Shown: positions 8,329-62,273 of the stretch, piece after piece
How the letters are laid out: every line of letters starts with the position of its first letter
How positions within the stretch are numbered: position 1 is the first letter of the stretch
Made by a program: the position numbers and the translations under genes
Notes under the pieces: model-generated
Database searches by the model: none
Seen by the model: the letters and a program-made list of their open reading frames with translations, nothing else
Told to the model about the DNA's origin: nothing
Assembly: GCA_024644465.1 (NCBI GenBank)
Contig: JAHEKY010000004.1
Span: forward strand, 1 to 64,000
DNA: 64,000 nucleotides
Direction: 5' to 3'
Source of the DNA: Ilumatobacteraceae bacterium
Lineage (GTDB): Bacteria; Actinomycetota; Acidimicrobiia; Acidimicrobiales; Ilumatobacteraceae

Positions 8329-9156
8329 ATGGGGAGATCACCACGTCCCGACGAGCCCGGCGGGCGCTTCCACGTGATGAATCGCGGGGTTGCCAAGCAG
8401 GCGACGTTTCGCTGCACGGAGGACCGAGTCGAGTTCGGGCGACTGTTGGCCCTGGGCCACGAGCGGTTTGGGGTCACGACGCACTCGTACTGCCTCATGG
8501 ACAACCACTTCCACCTGGTCCTTCACTGCCCGGACGGACACTTGTCCGAGTCCATGCAGCAGCTCGGTTCCGTGTTCACGCGCCACGCGAACGAGCGGAG
8601 CGGGCGCGACGGTCCGCTCTTCCGCGGCCGGTTTCGCTCGATCCGCATCACCGACGAGCACCAGCTGTTGAACACGGTCCGCTACGTACACCGCAATGCG
8701 CTCGACATTCCGGGGGTCTGCGCGGTCGATCGCTATCGGTGGTCGAGTCACCGGACGTACCTCGGACATCGGCGCGCACCCACGTGGATGGACACCGGGC
8801 CCGTGCTCGACATGTTCGGCCAGGATCGGCAGGCATTCGACGACTTCGTCTCGAACGATCGGTCGGCGCTGTGGCCGGTCGGCCCTGATGCGCTGCCCGA
8901 GATCGTGGAACTGGTCGTTGCCGAGCGACACGCCGACGTCGGCCCCGGCGTGCGACGCACGCTGCTGCTGCTCGTCCTCGAGCGGCTCTCCGACGGCGAT
9001 CGGTGCCGAGTCATTCGCATGCTCGGCTTCGAAGACGAGGTCCCGCTCCAACGTGCGCTTCGTCGGGCGGCACGACGCGCCGCAGCTGAGCCGTGGCTCG
9101 CCGACGCCGTCGAGCACGTGACACGTCTCGCTGGTGGACGACAAAGTTGTGTCTGA
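8329..9156 (+). CDS. REP-associated tyrosine transposase (RAYT), Y1/HUH family
   Basis: Single-strand DNA endonuclease-like protein of the IS200/Y1 superfamily, 275 aa. The HUH metal motif is HFH (60-62, in MDNHFHLVLH) and the candidate nucleophile is Tyr119 in VRYVHRNAL; GPLFRGRFRS (95-104) is also typical of RAYTs. The C-terminal ~130 residues are an Arg-rich extension. Palindromes lie on both sides, and the last codons (RQSCV) and stop are inside copy 2, so gene and element are physically fused. No second transposase or classical IS ends are seen. Known RAYTs are single-copy, vertically maintained genes tied to REP spread; that role is inferred here. Confidence 0.88.
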   Translation: MGRSPRPDEPGGRFHVMNRGVAKQATFRCTEDRVEFGRLLALGHERFGVTTHSYCLMDNHFHLVLHCPDGHLSESMQQLGSVFTRHANERSGRDGPLFRGRFRSIRITDEHQLLNTVRYVHRNALDIPGVCAVDRYRWSSHRTYLGHRRAPTWMDTGPVLDMFGQDRQAFDDFVSNDRSALWPVGPDALPEIVELVVAERHADVGPGVRRTLLLLVLERLSDGDRCRVIRMLGFEDEVPLQRALRRAARRAAAEPWLADAVEHVTRLAGGRQSCV

Positions 9157-24632: not shown

Positions 24633-25451
24633 ATGGCAGTGCGTAGTCGCAGGCGACTCATGCTGATCACGGGCGGATCTGGGTTCCTCGGCCGCCATCT
24701 GACCCAGGGCGCGGCGACAGCACAGTGGGAGCTGATCGCCCCGTCGTCGGCGTCGATGGACGTGCGTCGGCGGTCGTCGGTCGCTTCTGCGATCGCCGAC
24801 TGGAAGCCCACTGCGGTCGTCCACCTGGCGTACCGCAAGGGCGACCGGCCGACGACGGTCGACGGAAGTCGCCACGTCGCGGAGGCGGCCGCGGCATGTG
24901 GCGCCCGGTTGGTCCACCTGTCGTCGGACGTGATCTTCCCCGGTCGGATGGCGCCGTACGGGGAGGACGATCCGGCGCGGCCGCTCACCGAGTACGGCCG
25001 CCACAAGCGCGATGCGGAACAGGCGGTGCTCAGTGCCTGCCCGGCCGCGGTCGTCGTGCGGACGTCGCTGCTGTACGGCACCGACGACGTCGCGACGATC
25101 CAGCACGACGTCCGGCGGGCCCTCAGCGGGCCCGACCGGCAACCGATGACGTTCTTCACCGACGAGATCCGGTGCCCGGCGCACGCCACCGATGTCGCCG
25201 CGGCCGTTGCGGAACTCGCGCGGCGGCCGGAGGTCTCCGGCCCATTGCACGTCGCCGGGCCGGAGCCCGTCAGCCGGGCCGACTTCGCTCGCACCGTCGC
25301 ACGGTGGCTCGGCCTCGACTCGCTCGCGTTGAAGACGTCGACGATCGCCGAAGCCGGACTCGTGCGCCCGGCCCGCGTCGTGCTCGACACCCGCCGCGCG
25401 CTGGACCTCGGCATCGTGTGCCGCCCGATCGACGAATTCCTCGGCCGCTGA
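24633..25451 (+). CDS. NAD(P)-dependent reductase/epimerase, dTDP-4-dehydrorhamnose-reductase-like
   Basis: Extended short-chain dehydrogenase of 272 aa. The dinucleotide loop is MLITGGSGFLGRHL (near 10-23), the active-site Tyr-x-x-x-Lys is YGRHK (near 122), and LSSDVIFPGRMAPYGED (near 95-110) and FFTDEIRCPAHATDVA match RmlD-type reductases. The likely product is an activated deoxyhexose for envelope glycans, but no rmlA/B/C lie here, so the exact sugar is uncertain. Followed by a 246-bp gap packed with hairpins. Confidence 0.82.
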   Translation: MAVRSRRRLMLITGGSGFLGRHLTQGAATAQWELIAPSSASMDVRRRSSVASAIADWKPTAVVHLAYRKGDRPTTVDGSRHVAEAAAACGARLVHLSSDVIFPGRMAPYGEDDPARPLTEYGRHKRDAEQAVLSACPAAVVVRTSLLYGTDDVATIQHDVRRALSGPDRQPMTFFTDEIRCPAHATDVAAAVAELARRPEVSGPLHVAGPEPVSRADFARTVARWLGLDSLALKTSTIAEAGLVRPARVVLDTRRALDLGIVCRPIDEFLGR

Positions 25452-25530
25452 ACCGCCCGCTGACCGTTCTGAGGACATTGTGATGCGGAATCCGCAACGA
25501 TCCGTCCACAGAACAACGTTCGACGCACAG

Positions 25531-25576
25531 CCGCTGGAACCGGCGACTGCACCGCAGTCGCCGAACTGACGCCGCA
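25531..25576. repeat. 46-bp direct repeat with hairpin, copy A
   Basis: Matches 25648-25693 at 44 of 46 positions. It contains a 9-bp-arm hairpin (25541-25549 / 25555-25563, loop CACCG). Confidence 0.75.
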
Positions 25577-25609
25577 CACGACACCCGCGCCGGGCGCCGC
25601 AGGCGACCG

Positions 25610-25653
25610 CTCGGGCACCGCCCGAGGACTCCGGGGCAGCGGCACCGCCGCTG
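25610..25653. repeat. Two adjacent hairpins with ACC triloops
   Basis: CTCGGGC-ACC-GCCCGAG (25610-25626) and CAGCGGC-ACC-GCCGCTG (25637-25653), each with perfect 7-bp arms. They lie between the two 46-bp repeats, and the second overlaps the start of copy B. Confidence 0.6.
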
Positions 25654-25693
25654 GAACCGGCGACTGCACCGCAGTCGCCGGTCTGACGCCGCA
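25648..25693. repeat. 46-bp direct repeat with hairpin, copy B
   Basis: Second copy of the repeat at 25531. Its hairpin arms are 25658-25666 / 25672-25680. It runs directly into the terminator-like hairpin at 25681-25703. Confidence 0.75.
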
Positions 25694-25703
25694 GGCGTCA
25701 GAC
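25681..25703 (-). terminator. Hairpin over the tldE stop codon
   Basis: Perfect 10-bp arms (GTCTGACGCC / GGCGTCAGAC) with a GCA triloop; the tldE stop (25698-25700) lies in one arm. Likely terminator, without a T-run. Confidence 0.5.
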
Positions 25704-27077
25704 CCCGGACATCGTGACGTCGCGGATGACCAGGCTCATCCCGCTGGCGCGCATCGGCAGCCAGTCGATGTCGCCGCCGATTTCGACGATGTCGGTCAGC
25801 ATCCGCTGCAGCGTCGAGGCGATCGTGAACTCGCGCACGGGTGCGCCGACCTCGCCGCCGGAGATCAGCAGCCCGGCGGCGCCGGTCGAGAAGTCGCCGC
25901 TGATCGGGTTGACACCGGAGTGCAGCCCCTGCATCGACTGCACCAACAGACCGTCGTCGACGTCCGCGATCAGCTCGGCCTGGGACCGGGTGCCGGGCAC
26001 GAGCGACAGCGCGAGGCAACCGACGCCGGGCGTGCCGGCGAATCCGCCCCGAGTCGCGTTGCCGGTCGAGACCGTGCCGGCACGGCGACCCGAGTACGAG
26101 TTGTGCACGAACCGGCGCAGCACGCCGTTCTCGATCAACACGTTGCGCCGCGCCGCAAGACCCTCACCATCGACATCGGTCGCGGTGTAGGCGAGCGGGT
26201 TCGTCGGGTCGTCGACGAGTGTCACGTTCGACGCAGCGACGTCGTCGCCGAGGCGGTCGCGGAACAACGAGCGACCCTTGACGACCGCCTCGCCGTTCAG
26301 CGTCGACGAGATCACTCCGAGGAACTGCGCCGTGACGAACGGGTCGAGCACGACGGTCAACCGTTTGCTGGCAGGCTTCGTCGCACCGAGGAGCCGAGTC
26401 GCCCGATCGGCCGCCTCGCGAGCTGCTTTGTCCAGGTCGAAGTCGTGCGGGGAACGCCCGACCGAGAAGCCGAATCCGGTCTGTGTCTCGGCGTCGTCGC
26501 CATCGCCCTCGTCGGCGAGCGTCGAGACCGACACGTAGCAGCCGTTCTCGCGTCCGGACTTGCGGATGCCTGTCGTGCTCGCGACGGCCGACTCGCCAAA
26601 CGCGTCCACGTAGTTCGCGTCGTCGACGCGAACCCGCGGGTCGACGCCCGACGTGCGCTTCTCGAGTTGTTTCGCGAGATCGATCTTGTCGTCGGTCGGA
26701 TACTCGGCGAGCGCTTCGTTCCAGAGCGACTGCGCAGTCACCTCGACACCATCGGGCTGCGCCAGCGCGGCGAACTCGTCCGGCTGACCGAACTGCTGGT
26801 TGTCGCGGGCCTCCGCGAGCACCTCGTCGATCGCACCCGGATCGAGCGTGCCGGCGTACGCGAAGCCCGTACGGCCGTCGCGGATCACACGGATGCCGAT
26901 GCCTTCGCTCTGCGCGGCGACGAAGTGTTCGACCGCGCCCTGGTAGACGCGGACTTCGGTCTCGCCCCCGCGCGTCACGTATGCCTCGATCTCTTCGCCC
27001 GGCACCGCCTGGGCGACGACCCGATCAGCGACCGTCTGGAGGTCGGACTCGAACCCGGTGCCGCCGTCGGCGGTCAT
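25698..27077 (-). CDS. tldE: TldE/PmbA metalloprotease partner subunit
   Basis: 459 aa. With TldD it forms the heterodimeric zinc protease known for cleaving microcin leader peptides, CcdA and unfolded peptides. As expected for TldE/PmbA the HExxxH motif is absent; conserved stretches include SEGIGIRVIRDGRTGFAYA (near 60-78), NPLAYTATDVDGEGL and GDFSTGAAGLLI near the C-terminus. ATG at 27077 overlaps the tldD stop by 4 nt (ATGA), so the pair is coupled. No leader-peptide substrate gene is visible nearby; a longer in-frame start at 27164 would overlap tldD. Confidence 0.93.
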   Translation of the reverse strand: MTADGGTGFESDLQTVADRVVAQAVPGEEIEAYVTRGGETEVRVYQGAVEHFVAAQSEGIGIRVIRDGRTGFAYAGTLDPGAIDEVLAEARDNQQFGQPDEFAALAQPDGVEVTAQSLWNEALAEYPTDDKIDLAKQLEKRTSGVDPRVRVDDANYVDAFGESAVASTTGIRKSGRENGCYVSVSTLADEGDGDDAETQTGFGFSVGRSPHDFDLDKAAREAADRATRLLGATKPASKRLTVVLDPFVTAQFLGVISSTLNGEAVVKGRSLFRDRLGDDVAASNVTLVDDPTNPLAYTATDVDGEGLAARRNVLIENGVLRRFVHNSYSGRRAGTVSTGNATRGGFAGTPGVGCLALSLVPGTRSQAELIADVDDGLLVQSMQGLHSGVNPISGDFSTGAAGLLISGGEVGAPVREFTIASTLQRMLTDIVEIGGDIDWLPMRASGMSLVIRDVTMSGV

Positions 27078-28465
27078 GCGGCGGTGCCACCGATCGTCAT
27101 CGCCGTGACGCGCAAGGTCGGCTGGCCGTCGCCGACCGGCACGCCCTGGCCGTCCTTGCCGCACGTGCCGGGGTTGCCCATCGCAAAGTCGTTGCCGAGC
27201 ATGTCGATGTCCTTGAGCACCTGCGGGCCGTTGCCGATCAGGTTCCCCTCGCGGAGTGGTTCGGTGATCTCACCGTTCTCGATCATGTATGCCTCGGTCA
27301 TGCCGAACACGAAATCGCCGGTGGCCGTGTTGACGCTGCCGCCGCCGAGCTTCGCCACGTAGACGCCGTTGGCCGTCGAGGAGATGATGTCGTCGGGCTC
27401 GCTGGGCCCGTCGAGCACGAACGTGTTGGTCATGCGCACCATCGGCAGATGCTGGTAGCTCTGGCGGCGCCCGTTGCCGGACTGCGGCCGACCTTCCTTG
27501 CGGGCGCGGAGGTAGTCCCACATGTAGTCCGTGAGCACGCCGTCCTCGATCAGCACGTTGCGCTGCGTGATGTGGCCCTCGTCGTCGAAGCCGAGCGTGC
27601 CCCACTCACCCGGCATCGTGCCGTCGTCGACGAGCGTCACGAGCGGGGAGGCGACGAGTTGCCCGACCTTGCCGGCGTAGACGCTGGCGTCCTTCTGGAT
27701 GTGATCGGCCTCGAGGCCGTGGCCACAGGCCTCGTGGAACAGCACCCCGCCCGACCCGTTCTTGATCACGACGGGGACGGCGCCGGAGGGCGCCGGGCGG
27801 GCGCGCAGCTTCGTGATCGCCTGGCGCGCCGCATCGCGTGCGAGTGCTTCGACGTCGACGGTGTCGAAGATCTCGAACCCGACGGTGTGGCCCATCGACT
27901 GGAACCCGGTCTGCATGCCCGTGTCGCCGTCGGCGACGACGCTGATCCGCAACAGGGTGCGGACGACTTCGTCGTCGACGTGTACGCCGTCGGTGTTCGC
28001 GACGAGTGTCCGCTTGCTGCTGTCGCCGTACCCGGCCGAGACCTGCACGATCTCCGGGCCGGAGTCACGCGCCGCGTCGTCCATCCGCTGGAGCAACTCG
28101 ACCTTGCGCGCCTTCGCGATCGCGTCGGGCAGGTGGACGACGGTGTTCGGTCGGTGCGGGGCCGACTTTGTGAGTGCCACCGTGCGTACGCCGCCGCCGC
28201 CCGAACTCGCAGCCGATGCCGCGGCATCGGCGGCGCGCGCCAGCCCCGACTCGGTCAGATCCGAGGTGTAGGCGAAGCCGGTCGTCTCACCCGCGATGAC
28301 GCGGATGCCGGCCCCCCGGTCGCGACCACTGGTGACCTGTTCGATTCGCCCGTCGTCGAGACCTGCCGACGTCGACGCCTTGTCCTCGGCGTACACCTCT
28401 GCGAAATCGGCGCCCGTGCGCACTGCACCGGCGAGTACTCGTTCCAGGACGTCGTCGTCGATCAC
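27074..28465 (-). CDS. tldD: TldD metalloprotease catalytic subunit
   Basis: 463 aa, catalytic half of the TldD/TldE protease. The zinc motif reads LFHEACGHGLEADHI (His-Glu-x-x-x-His, near residue 235), and RRQSYQHLPMVRMTNTF (near 330) and GGSVNTATGDFVFGMTEAY are family blocks. The GTG start at 28465 is supported by a TATCCT box 7 nt upstream. Complete pair in the usual order D-E, convergent with the hairpin cluster. Confidence 0.95.
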   Translation of the reverse strand: MIDDDVLERVLAGAVRTGADFAEVYAEDKASTSAGLDDGRIEQVTSGRDRGAGIRVIAGETTGFAYTSDLTESGLARAADAAASAASSGGGGVRTVALTKSAPHRPNTVVHLPDAIAKARKVELLQRMDDAARDSGPEIVQVSAGYGDSSKRTLVANTDGVHVDDEVVRTLLRISVVADGDTGMQTGFQSMGHTVGFEIFDTVDVEALARDAARQAITKLRARPAPSGAVPVVIKNGSGGVLFHEACGHGLEADHIQKDASVYAGKVGQLVASPLVTLVDDGTMPGEWGTLGFDDEGHITQRNVLIEDGVLTDYMWDYLRARKEGRPQSGNGRRQSYQHLPMVRMTNTFVLDGPSEPDDIISSTANGVYVAKLGGGSVNTATGDFVFGMTEAYMIENGEITEPLREGNLIGNGPQVLKDIDMLGNDFAMGNPGTCGKDGQGVPVGDGQPTLRVTAMTIGGTAA

Positions 28466-62059: not shown

Positions 62060-62157
62060 GTGTGTCTCCGATGCTCCGCGGAGCCGTTGGGAGAACAAGC
62101 TGGGCCCGTCCGGCGGAGCCGGGTGCGTACCTTCCCTTGCCTCGAGGGTCTGTCGCG

Positions 62158-62273
62158 TCGTGCGGGCAGGCGACCGGGCTCGCGTGACACGGTCTGCGAC
62201 CGGATCACGACCACCGTTGCGGGACAGCGCCGGAATCTCACCGGACTTCGCTACACGCACGACTTGTGCTGGT
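62158..62273 (-). promoter_or_regulatory. Cobalamin riboswitch upstream of btuF
   Basis: On the minus strand the conserved core reads AAGTCCGGTGAGATTCCGG (complement near 62232-62250), then CTGTCCCGCAACGGT, and ends in a B12-box-like GAGCCCGGTCGCCTGCCC (complement near 62164-62181). These are the landmarks of the cobalamin aptamer. Downstream hairpins (CCGGCTCCGCCGG near 62110-62122, and GCTCCGCGGAGC near 62074-62085, next to the btuF start) could be the expression platform. Edges are approximate. Expected effect: B12 binding lowers transporter expression. Confidence 0.85.

Follow-up and report, generated by a model that had tools for sequence, protein, structure and literature searches.

The 64,000-nucleotide stretch of DNA analysed here (the window) contains a compact array of direct and inverted repeats flanked by two convergent genes, one on the plus strand with its end at 25451 and one on the minus strand with its end at 25698. 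The protein encoded by the latter is PmbA/TldE-like, matching the NCBIfam PmbA model with an E value of 1.4e-39 and 136 bits, under the curated cut-off of 438. The original prediction described two 46-bp repeats 117 bp apart and a cluster of five hairpins in this gap. The 46-bp unit is contained in a longer, 59-nt direct repeat, whose copies at 25525-25583 and 25642-25700 are 90% identical and spaced 117 bp apart. All five hairpins are perfect, four having an ACC loop as read on the plus strand (25541-25563, 25610-25626, 25637-25653 and 25656-25682) and one a GCA loop (25680-25704). The cluster is not a product of chance: the 21-nt hairpin, searched against the window with up to 3 mismatches, gave 4 matches (2 sites on both strands) against 0.01 expected, and the RNA of either strand has an unusually low folding energy, with z scores of -6.46 for the plus strand (25525-25712) and -4.22 for the minus strand (25480-25712) and 0 of 200 shuffles as low in each case.

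Results

Organization of the array

Most of the hairpins are parts of a single minus-strand structure that begins at the stop codon of the PmbA/TldE-like gene. The minimum-energy fold of the minus strand includes a junction with a closing helix, and the structure is made up of the following parts:

25698 to 27164, minus strand: PmbA/TldE-like gene, start uncertain (27164 or 27077)
25703 to 25709, minus strand: closing helix, 5' strand TCCGGGG, in the last sense codons before the stop (from minus-strand folds and the stem test)
25698 to 25700, minus strand: TGA stop codon of the PmbA/TldE-like gene
25683 to 25701, minus strand: hairpin H1, TGC loop, with the stop codon within its 5' arm
25656 to 25682, minus strand: hairpin H2, 12 bp, GGT loop, in the proximal repeat copy
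25637 to 25653, minus strand: hairpin H3, 7 bp, GGT loop
25630 to 25636, minus strand: closing helix, 3' strand CCCCGGA (from minus-strand folds and the stem test)
25622 to 25629, minus strand: pyrimidine-rich stretch GTCCTCGG, directly 3' of the closing helix
25610 to 25626, minus strand: hairpin H4, CTCGGGC/GCCCGAG, nearly constant among the loci found
25591 to 25609, minus strand: H5-like stem CGGTCGCC TGC GGCGCCCG, from the match to covariance model R1
25525 to 25583, minus strand: partial tandem copy of the array, 59 nt, 90% identical, with one perfect hairpin left (25541-25563)

The array starts at the stop codon, and H1 to H4 follow one another at gaps of 0, 2 and 10 nt. The closing helix is 7 bp long and encloses three hairpins; the pyrimidine-rich stretch and a further hairpin lie 3' of it, the stretch doubling from 25626 onward as the 5' arm of H4. 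The cluster had been placed at 25531-25703, and an array is indeed found there, but its core is better set at 25591-25709 because the closing helix extends into the gene; with the partial copy included, the array starts at 25525. A simple scan found neither sigma-70 promoters nor simple terminators, and no Rfam 15 family reaches its gathering score over the array in the window. Among four member loci of the family described below, Rfam matches at E values of up to 0.5 were confined to tRNAs and one antisense family overlapping them. Elsewhere in the window, a cobalamin riboswitch was detected on the minus strand at 62148-62273 (34.4 bits; gathering score, 31.5).

An imperfect palindrome at 25466-25514 lies just 3' of the plus-strand gene and is probably the REP-like family reported earlier from this DNA. 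Its part at 25480-25514, which forms the first 35 bases of the gap, has 11 other sites in the genome at E values below 0.02, including three that cluster within 1.5 kb of contig C27. The only Y1_Tnp domain (PF01797) found in the genome lies at 8371-8694 in a 283-aa open frame (26 bits; cut-off, 23), and this gene is a candidate RAYT for the palindrome.

The array belongs to a family

The exact 21-nt hairpin occurs at this locus only in the 3.37-Mb draft genome, yet related arrays are present at 14 loci. A nucleotide search with the gap showed that its array part resembles sites on contigs C151, C27, C166, C175 and C115, as well as weaker ones. The related sites have short hairpins in a similar order but with other stems and loops, and those on C151, C27 and C175 start at a stop codon; the C166 array is oriented opposite to the neighbouring gene, and the C115 match lies inside a called gene and lacks hairpins. 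A covariance model (R1) comprising H3, the linker, H4 and H5 was constructed from 13 sequences, most of them first gathered via the H4 motif, and was searched against 60 genomes including this one, with stricter filters at the loss of some weak matches. Within the window it matches 25591-25653 with 70.3 bits. At E values of up to 1, it has 21 matches in this genome, 22 in G001, 8 in G003, 7 in G006, 3 in G004, 2 in G005, 1 in G007 and 1 weak match in G002; G008 and G009 have none. Seven of the 10 genomes of the genus, this one and six of nine congeners, have matches at E values of up to 0.01, and each of the 50 genomes outside the genus has at most 2 weak matches (best E value, 0.023).

The occurrence of related arrays at these 14 loci and in relatives bears out the proposal that the array represents a second repeat family, distinct from the neighbouring palindrome. 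The original prediction took a repeat unique in the genome and absent from orthologous gaps as the mark of a chance local duplication. Although the exact hairpin is unique, the family exists and the orthologous gap of G001, which encodes the most similar protein, contains an array. The loops, proposed to be all purine/C-rich, are so in the window; across the family they vary freely (TCC, TTC, TGC, GGT, TGAC and others).

Nineteen of the 21 matches in this genome were laid out as the 14 loci. Tandem copies occur on C151, C175 and C80, and C96 seems to duplicate the C155 end, apart from a single base in the tail. Twelve of the 14 loci lie directly 3' of a same-strand stop codon; at the remaining two, C3 and C166, no same-strand gene was called upstream. 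Genes were called by our own codon-based caller without the use of annotation. Over all genomes laid out, the array is on the gene's strand and between -10 and 78 nt from the stop in 41 of 44 loci, a count that excludes extra copies, truncated arrays and arrays inside a gene. The layout lists 56 matches, of which 15 were left out of the stem test described below, leaving 41 loci: 9 extra tandem copies, 2 arrays cut at the contig start (C96 and C21), 1 inside a gene (G006_338), and C3, its G001 orthologue C23 and C166, for which no same-strand upstream gene was called. R1 matches weaker than an E value of about 0.06 were omitted from the layout, except G006_338, as was one stronger match, the second copy on C21 of G001. 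Because the 445 kb sampled from this genome were partly picked for contigs with hits, they cannot serve to estimate the frequency of arrays.

The family layout consists of the closing helix, followed by GTC, TTTT or similar, then H4 (CTCGGGC/GCCCGAG or a variant) and one of two kinds of tail. The near-constancy of H4 is due in part to the first collection of loci by its sequence. A 16-nt tail motif has four exact copies in this genome, all inside arrays. As in the window, the 3' half is repeated in tandem at L058:19197-19463, L072:14980-15158, L171:353-505 and L195:824-967, the periods ranging from 87 to 114 nt.

The H4 pattern CTCGGGC-n-GCCCGAG had 19 sites in the 10 genomes of the genus against 6 for a reversed-pattern control; in the 50 outside genomes, where it was uninformative, it had 36 sites against 53. 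A stricter DNA pattern matched, within a genome collection, two contigs of an Ilumatobacter MAG and one Devosia contig, the latter with other hairpins in its surroundings and unrelated by eye, and had no match in viral contigs. A blind descriptor search of 751 stops in seven genomes gave 12 matches, 6 of which are arrays, against 3 in a start-side control, and missed the C27 and C175 arrays.

The closing helix is fitted to the gene it follows

In the first loci read, the 7-nt segment after the third hairpin was the reverse complement of the gene's last codons or stop codon. R1 contains neither coding sequence nor linker pairs, and the closing helix is thus an independent test of the structure. 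At the 41 loci, the linker was compared with the sequence between 33 nt upstream and 14 nt downstream of the stop codon's end. A helix of at least 6 exact pairs is present in 30 loci and of at least 7 in 19, whereas linkers swapped between non-orthologous loci (n=1606) reach 6 pairs in 7.1% and 7 pairs in 1.2% of cases. With one locus per family, 19 of 28 have at least 6 pairs, where 2.2 would be expected, and the observed mean was not attained in any of 20,000 permutations. The result holds for held-out families, from which the loci where the helix was first noticed and their orthologues had been removed: 13 of 20 have at least 6 pairs, against 11% by swapping, again with 0 of 20,000 permutations. 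The 5' strand starts between position -15 and the first base of the stop codon in 27 of the 30 loci, the other three being at -24, -24 and +3. The possibility that the arrays are simply independent tandem hairpins was rejected, the closing helix accounting for the 10-nt spacer between H3 and H4.

The helix is not universal. Six exact pairs are lacking in 11 of the 41 loci, three of which (the C27/C145 pair and C149) fall short by a single mismatch or G-U and pair at 6 of 7 positions; at others, such as L11 in G006 and GuaA in G003, the helix is broken. The minimum-energy fold is closed by the helix in 10 of 16 loci as cut, including the window; in the other 6, and in a longer cut of the G001 sigma-factor locus, the lowest-energy fold lacks it.

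Comparison of orthologues revealed compensating changes between coding sequence and 3' untranslated region. In the C27/C145 gene, TTG-TGA in one genome corresponds to CTG-TAG in the other, and the 3' untranslated regions match with TCCCAAA and CTCCAGA, respectively. The RodA/FtsW-like gene ends in CGG-CGG-ATG or CGC-AGG-ATG, matched by ATCCGCC or CTCCTGC, and the C155/C128 oxidoreductase gene has GCC-GCC-GAC or GCA-GCG-GAC, matched by GTCGGCG or GTCCGCT. The compensated coding changes are all synonymous, or exchange one stop codon for another (TGA/TAG). One-sided changes in the helix also occur, in the Rho gene in G000 and in LeuRS in G004. Within H3 to H5, both sides of a pair have changed in 191 of 1333 cells, against a shuffled mean of 49.8, and the covariation score is 0.325, against 0.097 in shuffles, in a structure-fitted alignment with some chance matches among its rows.

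Strand, stability and the T-rich stretch

G-U pairs outnumber A-C oppositions in the stems by 34 to 7 (5:2 in the closing helix and 29:5 in H3-H5), pointing to the sense-strand RNA as the molecule that folds. The corresponding p of 2.5e-5 holds only for independent cells, which those of related rows are not, and the excess may be inflated by the fitting of a sense-strand model and by shared ancestry. Among the 34 loci that form at least 6 of 7 pairs, the 5 nt 3' of the closing helix are 61% T, against an intergenic background of 15.6%; T makes up only 18% after H4, and A before the 5' strand makes up 22%, against 15.9%. The T-stretch is short, is often TTTC or GTCC (GTCCT in the window) and has G as its first base in 11 of the 34 loci, including the window. 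The median folding z of the arrays is -4.3, with 31 of 41 below -3, and that of 150 sampled stops is -0.2, with 8 below -3 (controls of 110 nt with 40 shuffles; arrays of 55-143 nt with 60 shuffles). In the blind descriptor search, most sampled stops lacked such a structure, so the arrays are not the general terminator of this genome. None of 399 sampled stops of this genome is followed within 90 nt by a simple hairpin with a T-tract (5 T in 7), nor was one found in shuffled sequence.

Host genes and turnover

Eighteen host genes, mutually unrelated, were examined. Those for an RpoD-type sigma factor, LeuRS, GuaA, Rho, an NDMA-dependent alcohol dehydrogenase and a PHP-domain protein pass NCBIfam cut-offs, whereas the RodA/FtsW-family protein passes only that of a RodA subfamily and the PmbA/TldE, PBP2-like and quinone/lipoamide-dehydrogenase-like oxidoreductase genes are named from matches below cut-off. 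Pfam identified NUDIX, BipA/TypA, FtsK, FtsH-like M41 peptidase, MoaA-like radical SAM, S7, L11 and serine dehydratase proteins; the C27 protein has no Pfam match at E values of up to 1e-5. The window array belongs to a family of branched RNA folds found at stop codons, mostly those of housekeeping genes, in Ilumatobacter-type bacteria.

The presence of arrays in orthologous gaps, called by eye, is patchy. This genome and G001 have an array in the PmbA/TldE gap, which lacks one in G002, G003, G006, G007 and G008, and in the sigma-factor gap, which lacks one in G002, G003, G004, G006, G007, G008 and G009. In the GuaA gap, arrays are present in this genome and G006, degenerate in G003 and G005, and absent from G001, G002, G004, G007 and G008. 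Together with the sequence common to non-orthologous arrays, this patchiness indicates that members spread or are replaced, while most retain, or acquire anew, a closing helix that matches the gene they follow. A different long perfect palindrome, GTCAAAGTTGTGCCAGGCACAACTTTGAC, lies shortly after two stops in G001, at L209 (the GuaA gap) and at L076 near 19117, one of which corresponds to an array in this genome.

Arrays also lie directly 3' of L11 in G006 (L189) and G007 (L200), with a same-strand gene 130 and 121 nt beyond, respectively. The position of the G006 array (G006_880), between L11 and a same-strand gene 130 nt on, is an odd place for a full terminator. If the gene beyond the array is L1 in G006 and G007, the element would sit within a usual ribosomal-protein operon. 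At L134:440-600 and its orthologue L120, the closing helix (CACAGTG/CACTGTG in L134) is kept in two genomes with no same-strand gene called upstream and a plus-strand gene about 90 nt (G000) or 26 nt (G001) on. This array could be the end of an unannotated small RNA, or a leader attenuator.

Discussion

The array is best explained as a multibranched intrinsic terminator that is anchored at the stop codon and formed by the 3'-terminal part of the PmbA/TldE-like mRNA, a reading to which we assign a probability of roughly 0.6. Computation shows the fold, the family and the orientation of its members, as well as the compensating changes and the T-rich stretch; termination we infer from the combination of a helix and a T-rich stretch at gene ends, which is the format of an intrinsic terminator, the helix here being the base of a branched fold. 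In the proposed mechanism, the gene's last codons would pair with the 7-nt segment about 70 nt downstream, closing over three hairpins. This helix would form behind RNA polymerase once the downstream segment has been made, and the U-rich stretch would then free the transcript as in an ordinary intrinsic terminator, with release predicted in the first 5 nt of the pyrimidine-rich stretch (25625-25629). The 5' strand and H1 lie inside the footprint of a ribosome at the stop codon, so folding should wait until the ribosome has left. H4 and H5 may serve as a back-up, and the packed fold may shield the end of the mRNA. Doubts about termination come from H4, which is retained despite its place past the point of predicted release, and from the T-stretch, which is short and in part replaced by GTC.

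In an alternative, the fold would protect the mRNA 3' end or signal its processing, halting 3' exonucleases or being cut by an RNase, with termination further on or by Rho. A stable, compact fold that begins at the stop codon, hairpins kept beyond the T-stretch, and a genome that encodes Rho, from a gene that itself bears an array (C134), would all suit such a role, for which a T-rich stretch right after the closing helix is needless. We regard this explanation as unlikely.

That the arrays are dispersed DNA repeats of the REP/BIME or MITE kind, with stems generated by quasi-palindrome correction through template switching and with no RNA function, is in our judgement quite unlikely. Template switching could produce perfect stems without selection, and sequence common to unrelated loci, patchiness between orthologues and frequent tandem copies are what such repeats would show. 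A DNA repeat gives no reason, however, for the fixed strand and distance from the stop in 41 of 44 loci, for the excess of G-U over A-C, for the T-stretch or for coding-side changes that are synonymous. Like REP and BIME elements mobilised by RAYTs (Y1 transposases), the arrays are dispersed palindromic units in intergenic gaps; unlike them, they lack a short conserved palindrome and have a strand and place fixed relative to the stop codon. Membership in the REP/BIME group was rejected on the differing stems and this single orientation, the REP-like palindrome at 25466-25514 being a separate element. Of the original reading, then, a repeat family in its own right survives; its BIME-like nature does not, the units not being REP pairs, 41 of 44 lying on the gene's strand after the stop and 30 of 41 having a closing helix, and neither does loop composition as a feature of the family.

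A further scheme, which we consider improbable, is that a dispersed element spreads between gene ends and fits itself to each site by copying, upon arrival or later, the host's last codons in reverse complement into itself; each copy would then be a host-closed terminator that may sense the departure of the ribosome.

It is very improbable that the element acts on translation, with pairing at the stop codon stimulating readthrough, pausing or ribosome recycling. The stop codon does lie in or next to H1 or the closing helix at most loci, and TGA is the stop codon at 40 of 41 loci (p 0.01, taking 85% as the expected share; 86% in the genes sampled from this genome). However, loops of 3 to 5 nt shift the downstream frame between loci and between orthologues, the host genes are unrelated, and the T-stretch goes unexplained. 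Chance local duplication of hairpins between convergent genes, to which the restriction of the exact hairpin to this locus might have pointed, is refuted by the family members in the genome and its relatives, the orthologous G001 array, the closing-helix test and the covariation.

Hairpin clusters just 3' of stop codons have been tied to transcript ends by RNA-seq in 13 genomes, and poly-U is not required for these terminators (Gupta & Pal 2021, PMC8355165). The window array agrees with the definition of such clusters given there, hairpins less than 15 nt apart and within about 80 nt of the stop. The arrays differ from those clusters in their recurring architecture, with a closing helix made with coding sequence, a T-rich stretch directly after it, shared sequence and covariation; none of the words branched, cruciform, multiloop, orthologous and covariation is used in that article. 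The arrays have the stable GC-rich helix at the gene end of classical rho-independent terminators and, taken over 34 loci, a T-rich stretch directly after it. They differ from these in that the helix closes over two to three hairpins, with its 5' strand in or near the last codons, and in that the T-stretch is short and mixed with C. In the literature searched, from which most subscription journals were missing, nothing was found on such a structure.

The mode of transcript termination in high-GC actinobacteria is still debated, and programs that look for single hairpins would miss a branched fold whose closing helix uses coding sequence. The family also provides a clear case in which the 3' untranslated region changes in step with synonymous codons and one stop codon. 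Should the family indeed spread, it would have to be asked by what route the repeat comes by a segment that pairs with the end of every new host gene.
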